Positions 5,421 to 33,333 of a stretch of DNA of 40,053 nt are shown one piece after another; positions within the stretch are counted from its first letter, which is position 1, and each line of letters opens with the position of its first letter. The stretch is from Actinomycetes bacterium (lineage in GTDB: Bacteria; Planctomycetota; Phycisphaerae; JAACET01). The translations under genes and the position numbers were made by a program. The stretch covers positions 1 to 40,053 of the forward strand of contig JAUXAG010000020.1 of NCBI GenBank assembly GCA_030614915.1, read 5' to 3'. A model generated the notes under the pieces. It was not told where the DNA came from. It did not search any database and worked only from the letters and a program-made list of their open reading frames with translations.

Positions 5421-5450
5421 GGCAAAAAGAGGCTAAATAAAAGAATAGAG

Positions 5451-5481
5451 ACCCCCAGGATAAACCTGGGGGCTAAATATT
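5451..5481. repeat. Hairpin repeat (family R1), possible terminator overlapping the proS stop
   Basis: CCCCCAGG (5452-5459) pairs with CCTGGGGG (5465-5472) around a 5-base loop, followed by CTAAATATT. On the minus strand the hairpin comes directly after the proS stop codon and is followed by a T-rich stretch, so it could end transcription. The last two codons and stop of proS (5473-5481) lie inside the repeat. Confidence 0.75.
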
Positions 5482-7191
5482 AAAAGCTTTCAGTTCTGAC
5501 TGGATTATCTTGGCGGTCGCCTCGACGGCTCGGGAAGGTTCGAGTAGTTGGGGCTGTTTTTCGGTGCGGGGTTTGAGCTCGACGTTTCCATTGGCTAAGG
5601 CCTTTTCGCCAATGGTGATTCGCAGGGGGATGCCGATCAGGTCGGCGTCGTTGAACTTTACGCCGGGCCTGGCTGAGCGATCGTCCCAGAGGACCTCACA
5701 GCCGCGAGCGGTCAAGTCTTCGTAGAGCTTTTGGGCGGTGGTCAGGACCTGGTCTGATTGGCCCAGTTGCACCAGAATTACCTGGAAGGGGGCAATGTTC
5801 ATGGGCCAAATGATTCCCTGTTCGTCGGCTCCGGTCTCGATGGTTGCGGCCATGATGCGATTCAAACCGATACCGTAGCAGCCCATAATTAACGGCTGAG
5901 TCTTGCCCTTCTCGTCCAGCACGTCAGCCCCGAGGGCCTGGGAGTATTTGGTGCCGAGCTGGAAGACGTGGCCGATCTCGATGCCCTTGGAGAATTGCAA
6001 TTCGCCGCCGCACTTGGCGCAGCGGTCGCCCGGTTGGGCCAGGCGGATGTCAGCGACGCTGGACAGAGCAAAATCGCGCCCGGGATTTACGCCGAGCAGA
6101 TGGTAGTCTGTCTTATTCGCTCCGGTGGCAGCATTGGCCATGCCTTGGACAGCCTTATCAGTAATGATCGGCAACTTACTTAGTCCCACGGGTCCGGCAA
6201 ATCCTACGGCTGCGCCGGTGAGCTTTTCGATAGTCTGGGCGTCGGCCATTTCCACGTTGGCCACTCCAGCCGCGTGAGCGAGTTTGGCTTCGTTGAGCTC
6301 ATGATCGCCGCGGATAAGGGCTGCCAGCGGTTTGCCGTCGCCTAGCAAAACCAAAGTCTTGATTAGCTTCTCGGCTGGGACCTTCAGCAGCTTGGTCAGC
6401 TCCTCGATGGTGGTCGCGCCGGGGGTGTGCATCTCGCGAAGGTCCTTTGGACTTTCCTTTGTCTCTTTCTGCGGTGTTGCTGCGGTTGCCCGCTCGAGAT
6501 TGGCTGCGTATCCGCAAGAGCAGCGGACGAGGGTGTCTTCGCCGGCTTCAGTGGGAACCATAAACTCGTGAGAAGATTCGCCGCCGATTGGCCCAGACTC
6601 AGCCTCAACAACTATGTAGTCAAGACCGCAGCGATCGAATATTCGACAATAGGCGTCGTACATCTTCTGGTAAGTGATCTTGAGGTCGTCGAGGGTGAGG
6701 TGGAAGCTGTAGGCGTCCTTCATCAAGAACTCGCGGGTTCGCAGGACGCCGAAGCGCGGCCGATACTCGTCGCGGAACTTGGTTTGAATCTGGTAGAGGT
6801 TAAGGGGGAGCTGCTTGTAAGAGCTGATGTTGTTGGCTACTAAGGTGGTGATGACTTCCTCATGAGTGGGCCCGAGGACGACGCGGCGTCCGTGGCGGTC
6901 GGTGAAGTTCATGAGCACTGGGCCATAGGCCTTGAGCCTGCCGGAGCGCTCCCAGAGCTCGCCCGGCTGAATCACGGGCATGTGCAACTCCTGGGCGCCG
7001 GCGGCGTCCATCTCCTGGCGGATAATCTGCTCGATCTTCCGCAAGGTCCGATAACCAAGAGGGAGATAGGTATAAGCCCCGGCGGCCAATTTGCGCATCA
7101 GGCCGGCCCGGACCATCAGCTTGTGCGAGAGAACTTCCGCGTCGGAGGGGTCTTCCTTTACGGTGGGGATGAAAGCCTTAGACCATTTCAC
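5473..7191 (-). CDS. proS: Prolyl-tRNA synthetase, bacterial type
   Basis: ProS charges tRNA-Pro with proline in the cytoplasm. The 572-residue length and order fit the bacterial class II enzyme: N-terminal catalytic part (MKWSKAFIPTVKEDP, LMRKLAAGAYTYLPLGYRTLRKIE, VLGPTHEEVIT, RPRFGVLRTREFLMKDAYSF in pieces), then an insertion domain of the YbaK-like editing type (about residues 225-385, with TTIEELTKLL and LVLLGDGKPLAALIRGDHELNE), then catalytic motif 3 (MGCYGIGLNRIMAATIE) and a C-terminal anticodon-binding domain. The ATG at 7191 is preceded by GAGGTGAT, one of the best ribosome sites in the window. The extreme C-terminus ends inside a hairpin repeat. The gene is downstream of pgi but separated by a repeat-filled spacer and probably has its own promoter. 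Confidence 0.97.
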   Translation of the reverse strand: MKWSKAFIPTVKEDPSDAEVLSHKLMVRAGLMRKLAAGAYTYLPLGYRTLRKIEQIIRQEMDAAGAQELHMPVIQPGELWERSGRLKAYGPVLMNFTDRHGRRVVLGPTHEEVITTLVANNISSYKQLPLNLYQIQTKFRDEYRPRFGVLRTREFLMKDAYSFHLTLDDLKITYQKMYDAYCRIFDRCGLDYIVVEAESGPIGGESSHEFMVPTEAGEDTLVRCSCGYAANLERATAATPQKETKESPKDLREMHTPGATTIEELTKLLKVPAEKLIKTLVLLGDGKPLAALIRGDHELNEAKLAHAAGVANVEMADAQTIEKLTGAAVGFAGPVGLSKLPIITDKAVQGMANAATGANKTDYHLLGVNPGRDFALSSVADIRLAQPGDRCAKCGGELQFSKGIEIGHVFQLGTKYSQALGADVLDEKGKTQPLIMGCYGIGLNRIMAATIETGADEQGIIWPMNIAPFQVILVQLGQSDQVLTTAQKLYEDLTARGCEVLWDDRSARPGVKFNDADLIGIPLRITIGEKALANGNVELKPRTEKQPQLLEPSRAVEATAKIIQSELKAFNI

Positions 7192-11361: not shown

Positions 11362-11435
11362 GAACGTGTAAATAAATAATCATCCATTTCTGCCGCTAAA
11401 TAAACCCCTACGATAAAGCGGGGATAATCAAAGAG

Positions 11436-11466
11436 CCCCCCAGGATAAACCTGGGGGCTAAATATA
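11436..11466. repeat. Hairpin repeat (family R1)
   Basis: CCCCCAGG, loop ATAAA, CCTGGGGG, then CTAAATATA. It lies 75 bases after the HEAT gene stop and could act as its terminator. A degenerate CCCC...GGGG hairpin precedes it at about 11405-11423. Confidence 0.75.
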
Positions 11467-11490
11467 GCATGATCCACAGAACCTTATATA

Positions 11491-18185: not shown

Positions 18186-18652
18186 ACGCTGATTTTACCA
18201 AGTCGGCAGTTCAAAGGGAAGCTCCGGCGTAAAGAAGGCTTGCTCGTGCTACGTAGCGAGCTACTTCGCAGAGTAGTAAGACCTGAGGAGGATAAATACA
18301 GAAAGAAATACAGAAAAACAATTAGCCACAGATTACACAGATGAACACTGATTCAAAGAAAGAAATACAGAAATTAGACGCTGATTCCGCTGATTCCGCT
18401 GATTCACAGAAAGAAATACAGAGGATTTACCACGAAGGAGGGAAACCCCACAGAGGCACAGAGTAAGACCCCCGGTGAAACCGGGGGCTAAATATAGAAA
18501 ACAGGGGCAAAGGCACAGAGGCACAAAGGCAGATAAAGAAAAGAAACCCCCGGTAAAACCGGGGGCTAAATATAAGATGGATCCCTGCCTGCGCAGGGAT
18601 GACAGCAAGGATAAACCTGGGGGCTAAACAAAGGCCTTGGTATCCTGATTCG
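18186..18652. repeat. Gene-free spacer built from several dispersed repeats
   Basis: No gene is visible here. Contents in order: a GCTACGTAGC palindrome (18248-18257); AAAGAAATACAGA three times (about 18302, 18359 and 18410); a CACAGATTACACAGATGAAC segment of the widespread 'CACAGATTACACAGAT' type; a 9-base tandem CTGATTCCG (about 18381-18406); R1 hairpin repeats at 18468-18496 and 18546-18574; the ATCCCTGC-CTGC-GCAGGGAT palindrome (18581-18600) followed by GACAG; and a truncated R1 copy lacking its left arm (about 18608-18628). Reading frames here, including a long minus-strand one reaching 19432, are accidental. Confidence 0.75.
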
Positions 18653-20936: not shown

Positions 20937-21701
20937 ATGATGGTTTTGAAAAGTGCCACAACAATACTTTTTGCTTTTGCTGCAATCTTGTTGCTTGGTT
21001 GTCGTGATAGTGATGAATTACGTTCTGCTAGATTAGCCGAAGCCAGAGCAGATGAGGCAATAGCTCTATTCAAAGAAGATATTGCTGAGCTGGAGATACA
21101 GGTTGGAAAACTTGTCAAGGAAAACGAAATATTAGCTCAGACGAATAAGAAACTGAGGCAAGAAAACATGAAGCTTGCTAAGGAACTAGAGGATGTGAAG
21201 AAAGAGACTTTAGCAAACAAAGCTAAAAGTAAGGAAAACGAAATATTAGTTCAGGCGAATAAGAAATTGAGGCAATACAATTTCAAGCTTGCTAAACAAT
21301 TAGAGGATGTGAGAAAAGAGATCTTAGCAAACGAATCTAAAAAAGCTGTGGTGCCAAAAAAGCAAAGTGTTCCTAAAAGACTTGTGCAGAAATGGTATGA
21401 AGGCGGCACACTTCACAACAAGTCCGCCCTTGAATGGCAAATGGCTAGCGCTGAGGATAAGCTGGCAACCTGCTCGGATTTTGTCGCTATTACGTGGAAA
21501 GAGCAGAAATTTATTTCGAGGATTCAAAACTCGATTGATTCCGTAGACTCCATGAAAATACACGCGGCACAACTTGTAATCTATCTTGATGCTGCAACAG
21601 AAAGATTCGCGGATCCTGAACAAAACAGAAGGGTGTATGCTAATCAAACTGTTTCAGGTCTGACAATGTTCGGCATGGTAGCGATGGGATGGCTCAAATA
21701 G
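20937..21701 (+). CDS. Coiled-coil lipoprotein with internal duplication, AT-rich
   Basis: The 254-residue product has lipobox LLLGC with Cys22. Residues about 30-140 are a coiled coil containing two tandem 38-residue units starting at 61 and 99 (KENEILAQTNKKLRQENM... and KENEILVQANKKLRQYNF...). The DNA of the two units (21117-21230 and 21231-21344) is also very similar, so the duplication is recent. The C-terminal 90 residues form a separate domain (WYEGGTLHNKSALEWQMASA, then DKLATCSDFVAITW, then DAATERFADPEQNRRVYANQ, ending MGWLK) that I cannot name. AAGGAAGGA precedes the ATG by 7 bases. Codon third positions are visibly richer in A/T than in neighbours, suggesting acquisition from elsewhere. 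Its head may reach toward peptidoglycan or the outer membrane; this is speculation. Confidence 0.78.
   Translation: MMVLKSATTILFAFAAILLLGCRDSDELRSARLAEARADEAIALFKEDIAELEIQVGKLVKENEILAQTNKKLRQENMKLAKELEDVKKETLANKAKSKENEILVQANKKLRQYNFKLAKQLEDVRKEILANESKKAVVPKKQSVPKRLVQKWYEGGTLHNKSALEWQMASAEDKLATCSDFVAITWKEQKFISRIQNSIDSVDSMKIHAAQLVIYLDAATERFADPEQNRRVYANQTVSGLTMFGMVAMGWLK
21117..21344 (+). repeat. Tandem 114-bp in-frame duplication
   Basis: Two adjacent 114-base units within the coiled-coil lipoprotein, both starting AAGGAAAACGAAATATTAG. They are clearly similar along their full length at DNA and protein level. Confidence 0.85.
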
Positions 21702-21774: not shown

Positions 21775-21911
21775 GTGAAAAAGTCTGGATTATCGCTAAA
21801 GCGATGATAAGCCCGCCTGCGCGGGAATGACAGATAAAGAGACCCCCGGTGAAACCGGGGGCTAAATATAAGAGAGATTGCCGCGGTCGCCTTCGGCTCC
21901 CTCGCAATGAC
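21775..21911. repeat. Stack of three dispersed repeats between convergent genes
   Basis: Spacer 21702-21925 has no gene. It contains TCGC-TAAA-GCGA (21793-21804) and CCCGC-CTGC-GCGGG followed by AATGACAG (21812-21833), an R1 hairpin repeat (21842-21870), and a GAGATTGC...CTCGCAATGAC repeat (21874-21911). The same families occur together at 18468-18628. The position between two convergent genes fits a role as two-way terminator. Confidence 0.7.
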
Positions 21912-32805: not shown

Positions 32806-33333
32806 TCAAGGTGCGGATTTTTGGAAGACGGCTCCGAGGCCCAACTGCTGGAGCAATTCGTCCTCGCGGTCGTGCATCCGGCGAGCATCCGCGGGTTTGG
32901 CATCATTGTATCCAAGCACGTGGAGCAGGCCGTGTACGGTGTAAAGGGCCAATTCCTTGTTGATGCTGGTGCAGTTCAGCCGGGCCTGGGTGCGGGCCAC
33001 TTGGCCTCCCAGGGCCAGGCTCACTAAAAACCCCCCGGCATGCAGGCCGGGGGCGTTAGAACCCCCGGTAAAACCCGGGGCTAAATCAAAGCAGATAACG
33101 TCAGTGACTTTGGGCCTGCCCAGATACTCCTTGTGCAGCCGGGCCATGTCCTTGTCGTCAAAGACGGCCAATTCGACCTGGCCTGCGGTTACGCCGTGCT
33201 GGGCTGCGGTGAACTTGACCACTTTGGCCAATAACTTGCGGTCAAGCCGCAAAGAGCGACAGTGATTGAGCACACTGACATTCAAACGAGCAGAGCTGGA
33301 TTTGCGTCGGGGATGACTGCGTGCTTTAGGCAT
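32806..33333 (-). CDS. ybeY: Endoribonuclease YbeY carrying an in-frame repeat insertion
   Basis: YbeY is a metal-dependent RNase needed for 16S rRNA 3' maturation and ribosome quality control. The 175-residue product has the family parts LNVSVLNHCRSLRLD, VELAVFDDKDMARLHKEYLG, KVTDVICFDL and HGLLHVLGYN with two metal His residues. The usual third His directly after GY(D) is replaced (GYNDAKPADARRMH), so the third ligand is unclear. Between DVICFDL and GGQVARTQA lie about 20 residues (APGFTGGSNAPGLHAGGFLV) encoded by two adjacent hairpin repeats, in a loop where other YbeY proteins have a short, variable connection. I place the start at ATG 33333, 10 bases after the HDIG gene stop; the longer frame to 33489 only reads through that gene's 3' end. 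Confidence 0.85.
   Translation of the reverse strand: MPKARSHPRRKSSSARLNVSVLNHCRSLRLDRKLLAKVVKFTAAQHGVTAGQVELAVFDDKDMARLHKEYLGRPKVTDVICFDLAPGFTGGSNAPGLHAGGFLVSLALGGQVARTQARLNCTSINKELALYTVHGLLHVLGYNDAKPADARRMHDREDELLQQLGLGAVFQKSAP
33031..33086. repeat. Two adjacent hairpin repeats inside ybeY
   Basis: CCCCCGGC (33032-33039) pairs with GCCGGGGG (33046-33053), followed by CGTTAG; then an R1 copy at 33061-33086 with CCCCCGG, loop and CCCGGGG-CTAAAT. Both have the composition of the intergenic repeats, yet the ybeY frame passes through both without stop or shift. Confidence 0.8.

Follow-up and report, generated by a model that had tools for sequence, protein, structure and literature searches.

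The gene ybeY encodes an rRNA maturation RNase, and in the genome analysed here (G000) part of its coding sequence resembles palindromic repeats of the kind found between genes. The question is what these elements are, how they came to lie in this gene and why they persist there. The window, that is, the whole stretch of 40,053 nucleotides that was analysed, carries the ybeY coding sequence on the minus strand at 32806..33333. Its 175-residue product matched PF02130 (E 1.3e-21) and TIGR00043 (E 5.2e-26, above cut-off) in profile searches, and a structure model of it matched the solved YbeY structures 7y7o, 1xm5 and 1oz9 in a fold search (E ≤ 1e-8).

Two REP-like hairpins lie within the gene on the plus strand: a family B element at 33026..33063 (stem-loop 33032-33053, tail CGTTAGAA) and a family A element at 33056..33090 (stem-loop 33063-33080, foot CTAAAT, which is TTTAG on the ybeY coding strand). 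Hairpin B reads CCCCCCGGCATGCAGGCCGGGGGCGTTAGAA (33032-33059), with hairpin A directly after it as CCCCCGGTAAAACCCGGGGCTAAAT (33062-33086). Covariance models built without the ybeY copies gave hairpin B 46.2 bits (model R2, E 8.7e-13, rank 3 in the genome) and hairpin A 35.2 bits (model R1, E 2.1e-5 genome-wide); Rfam gave nothing at the gathering threshold within the window. Neither hairpin is a chance palindrome, and the two are members of different repeat families. Several other sites also have a B element with an A element behind it in like orientation, so that ybeY carries the standard B+A composite.

A sequence-only reading of the window had proposed that palindromic repeats of intergenic type sit in frame within ybeY, and this was borne out: the frame is open through both hairpins and each matches its family model. 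The insert had been put at about 20 residues; the two hairpins jointly encode 17, APGFTGGSNAPGLHAGG, between VICFDL and FLVSLALGG, with hairpin B read as NAPGLHAGG and hairpin A as LAPGFTGG. That reading had also placed the same hairpin family at six other sites in the window, which holds for hairpin A but not for hairpin B, the second family. The family A copies, all intergenic and on the plus strand, are at 5447..5489 (the CCCCCAGG subtype), 11432..11474, 18462..18504, 18540..18582 and 21836..21878, with a partial copy comprising only the right arm and foot at 18601..18628. A repeat of another kind, a 112-nt direct repeat with 85% identity, was noted at 21117-21342 within an ORF (20937-21701) for a charged, repeat-rich protein.

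The structural check suggested with the sequence-only reading placed the insert in a loop of low confidence that joins two strands of the YbeY fold: in the AlphaFold2 model (four-sequence alignment, mean pLDDT 77.5), residues 86-99, between strands 79-83 and 102-109, had pLDDT values below 50. In 28 homologues from the class, the loop that leads from TDVxxFDL to the following strand varied in length and was unrelated in sequence. The suggested alignment with related genomes succeeded in part. The ybeY gene of the sister genome G002 is 70% identical and has hairpin B in the same codons (27.9 bits), indicating that B predates the split between G000 and G002; the A part of the G002 gene is shorter by 12 nt and is no longer recognised as a hairpin of its own. 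An exact empty site that would fix the insertion boundaries was not found, the G002 gene differing by 12 nt and not by a full element. The family A part may have been gained in G000 or lost or eroded in G002. No ybeY was found in G001, and a search of contigs for more ybeY sequences returned only the G002 record and two distant proteins. The best reading of the insertion is a plain one, in which the model points to a flexible loop that tolerates it, probably neutrally. The sister-genome record JAACET010000009.1 is titled Actinomycetota bacterium OTbin.97, yet it belongs to the same genus as G000, and the title may be wrong.

Family A is abundant in G000. The 9-mer GGGGCTAAA occurred 137 times in the genome versus 26 times for its reversed control, and about 114 of the examined sites had the family A right arm and foot. 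The stem varied in a manner matched on both arms (CCCCCGG/CCGGGGG, CCCCGGG/CCCGGGG, CCCCCAGG/CCTGGGGG and CCCCCGGC/GCCGGGGG), and the constant parts were a TRAAA-type loop and a CTAAA foot. CTAAA (or TTTAG) adjoins the hairpin in the family A copies listed, the pattern by which they were collected itself including the foot. In some family A hairpins of G000 (L015, L017, L030, L101 and L125), nested palindromic inserts, ACGCGTAGCGTCCTTCCCGTAGGGACCTGTGGTCGGAA or CCCCAATCGCGAAATATCGCGATTGGGG, were seen in the loop. At one contig end (G000:C7:1-250; L024, L028) units of 58-59 bp are arrayed in tandem, and every unit has the right half of an A element.

Only one of the approximately 114 family A copies was within a recognised gene, and the sampled G000 DNA was about 83% coding. 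Other candidates for intragenic copies were rejected: those in long ORFs were in ORFs without a family match or were chance 9-mers without a hairpin, and the copy at an Fe-S protein gene (L099) lies upstream of the likely start. Family A thus agrees with REP sequences in being a short palindrome, mostly extragenic and present in more than 50-100 copies per genome. The copies were closer to the 3' ends of genes than to their starts. Their orientation to genes was mixed, and a terminator role for the elements was therefore rejected. Orientation along the DNA was nearly uniform within contigs, with 112 of 114 copies agreeing there and 111 of 114 matching the sign of the GC skew (binomial P about 2e-29, tandem copies not being independent), where the skew per contig serves as a proxy only for fork direction. 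Comparison of G000 with G001 showed at least one site that differs by a whole 37-nt family A unit. Outside the genus, with its three genomes, a search of 295 class genomes found the family A core in five, which all belong to one other family.

In the work of Nunvar et al. (2010; PMC2817692), the REP/RAYT system is defined by a RAYT gene with an inverted REP on either side. Genome searches found no RAYT or Y1 transposase gene in G000 or G001, and no PF01797 match in G000, so that the flanked arrangement was not seen there; this result counts against claiming present mobility in these two genomes. In G002, a Y1 transposase gene (L171, 151 aa; PF01797 22.8 bits, or 23.2 bits with its in-frame neighbours) sits precisely between two inverted A elements. 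Its match to the NCBIfam model REP_Tyr_transpos reached 26.4 bits, below the 80-bit cut-off. Relatives of this transposase were present in all five other genomes with the A core (best per genome, 46-58% identity), and most of them are enclosed by inverted hairpins with a GCTAA foot, whose end is GGGGCTAA or a close variant of it. The arrangement of a RAYT gene between inverted copies is thus found in G002 and, with related hairpins, for most relatives in the five genomes. The RAYT relatives, too, have TTAG or TTAGC at their flanks. By sequence and gene arrangement, family A can be assigned to the REP sequences with a RAYT arrangement.

The likeness to the system of Nunvar et al. extends to hairpin size (about 20-25 nt), the conserved foot, a copy number above 100, a position near gene 3' ends, the occurrence of dimers and composites and the transposase gene between two inverted copies. 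The two differ in that the present elements have the foot TTAG (GCTAA on the opposite strand) and not GT(A/G)G, the copies here are almost all on one strand per contig, and the composites here are direct (B then A) and there inverted. GT(A/G)G and CGTC are the tags named in PMC2817692 and in Di Nocera et al. (2013; PMC3733652). Family A carries neither a GTAG/GTGG nor a CGTC tetranucleotide; its tag is TTAG, and it is therefore filed as a REP variant and not as a GTAG or CGTC REP. A second comparison is with the IS200/IS605 family, whose subterminal hairpins were described by Quentin et al. (2018; PMC6006769) along with REPs lying in frame within tnpA genes of subclass 2.4. Here too there is a foot tetranucleotide 5' of the hairpin, a Y1 enzyme and in-frame insertion in a loop, although no Y1 transposase gene was found in G000. 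Insertion through single-stranded DNA of the replication fork, with a lagging-strand bias, is known for the IS200/IS605 family (PMC6006769).

The explanation that we consider quite probable as a whole is that families A and B are non-autonomous REP sequences and that a B+A pair landed in the length-variable loop of YbeY. The insertion would have persisted because the frame was kept and the loop tolerates extra residues. Family A would be spread, now or formerly, by a small HUH/Y1 tyrosine transposase (RAYT) that may act on single-stranded DNA at the replication fork and recognise the hairpin with its TTAG foot; the RAYT gene has apparently been lost from G000. Fork polarity would then be the cause of the orientation. 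The one-way orientation fits insertion via single-stranded DNA of the fork, and selection on strand composition would fit it too.

Family B follows the pattern CCCCCGGC-ACGTAG-GCCGGGGG-CRTTA, with a loop ACGYAG and a foot CRTT. The covariance model found about a dozen good copies in G000, and matches numbering 147 in G002 and 22 in G001. In the stem alignment, 97.9% of cells were paired, three pairs had changed on both sides and the covariation score exceeded those of all 500 shuffles, so that family B combines stem covariation with a fixed foot. One strand per contig was used in all 36 G002 contigs with at least two B copies among those listed. A second Y1 gene of G002 (L169) matched REP_Tyr_transpos with E 3.8e-18, and no flanking B copies were seen.

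Further elements lie in frame in other genes. A gene for a B12-binding radical SAM protein (TIGR03960) contains a B element in frame in G000 (C35:194509-194546) and, at the corresponding position, in G002 (C50:11581-11618). In 18 homologues from the class, residues that would match the middle of this segment are absent, six in most of them and four in two. In G002, a DUF4340 gene (926 aa) contains an in-frame B+A pair; the G000 orthologue is without it, having unrelated sequence there and an 8-residue alignment gap. The three internal insertions (ybeY, TIGR03960 and DUF4340) are read on different strands and in different frames, giving NAPGLHAGG, PRHVGRG and PPARRPGAL, which argues against selection for a peptide.

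A role of the hairpins in the mRNA had also been suggested. The coding-strand RNA of the ybeY hairpins is strong (-34.6 kcal/mol), folding only moderately better than shuffles (z -2.1). On the coding strand, hairpin B is followed by GTTTTTAG, which resembles a terminator, but such matches were as frequent as in shuffled sequences (1 versus 1.1 expected), and G002 has TTCTCAG in place of the T run; an effect on translation or transcription thus gained no support. Among same-residue codons of fourfold type, 9 of 10 were identical within the B elements that lie in ybeY and in the radical SAM gene versus 133 of 309 elsewhere (Fisher P 0.006). This contrast is weakened by the selection of the G000 copies for similarity to the consensus, and recombination between copies, which may even them out, could also cause it. 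These data bear on two readings. According to one, the TTAG-tagged REP/RAYT branch spreads in one orientation relative to the fork, and the nucleotide sequence of in-frame copies is conserved between species because their mRNA hairpins are useful in ybeY and in the radical SAM gene; we regard this as improbable. According to the other, the ybeY hairpins are kept for an mRNA function, slowing or partly terminating transcription or pacing translation and so tuning YbeY output. The fold, the terminator-like tail and the codon conservation speak for it, and the shuffle result, the lost T run and the biased choice of copies against it, making it a possible but unsupported role to which we give a slightly lower probability.

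Like Rickettsia palindromic elements (RPE), the elements described here are palindromic inserts translated in frame in several unrelated conserved genes. The sequence-only reading had drawn this parallel, and protein tolerance to a palindromic element holds in principle, though REP/RAYT fits the family better than RPE. If the elements were of the Rickettsia type, entering genes preferentially and coding for a fixed peptide, a preference for genes and a single reading frame would be seen. Instead, nearly all copies are extragenic, the three gene insertions differ in strand and frame, and RAYT genes flanked by the same hairpins exist, which makes this reading very unlikely. The foot also differs from that of RPE as described in PMC3733652, in which R. 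conorii RPE-4/6 are equated with repeats of the REP kind; the two are set apart here by description and not by sequence. That the ybeY segment is normal coding DNA for a variable loop, resembling the repeats by chance or convergence, agrees with the variable loop length across the class and with a Pro/Gly-rich peptide such as loops often have, but the genome-wide scores (46.2 and 35.2 bits) for two independent families in their usual B-then-A order refute it for all practical purposes.

With the non-autonomous REP pair as the preferred reading, ybeY offers a seldom observed instance of elements of a known type, and the position in a gene is not itself new. Intragenic in-frame REPs are already known: Di Nocera et al. 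found GTAG- and CGTC-tagged REPs within annotated genes with the frame unbroken and reported REPs in Planctomycetes (PMC3733652), and PMC6006769 gives a further case. The main text of PMC3733652 mentions neither ybeY nor TTAG, that of PMC6006769 does not contain TTAG either, and the term was absent from the papers listed in a search confined to open-licence PMC papers. Within that literature, the tag TTAG appears to be new, and so does the orientation in one direction. Together with the direct B+A composites and the two intragenic sites common to orthologues, they describe a new variant. Two in-gene sites common to two species and one present in a single species amount to dated REP insertions; one relative still has the transposase, which was not found in the other. 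With the copies lying almost without exception on one strand, the long-held idea of REP spread via single-stranded DNA of the fork can be put to a direct test. There is also a warning in these cases, in that in-gene REPs may appear as odd Pro/Gly loops in conserved proteins.

Di Nocera et al. also described REPs at gene ends that supply stop codons (PMC3733652). The present elements share this property along with the in-frame intragenic position, and differ in having two sites common to orthologues of two species. The C-terminus is encoded by a B element in two genes of G000, flhB and ddl, and in a PTPS-family gene of G002. B copies near the starts of TGT, glycosyltransferase, enolase-like and HMGL-like genes (G002 and G001) were left out of account, the predicted N-termini probably being too long. 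At the flhB end, a B+A REP pair (G000:C13:140773-140837; L199) encodes the last residues, KTPPGCVRGAI, and provides the TAG stop. The C-terminus of the D-Ala-D-Ala ligase in G000 is a B element (G000:C2:59462-59499; L206, L353). In G001 (L262), the same B element lies past the stop codon of the ligase gene, and a deletion seems to have fused the two in G000.
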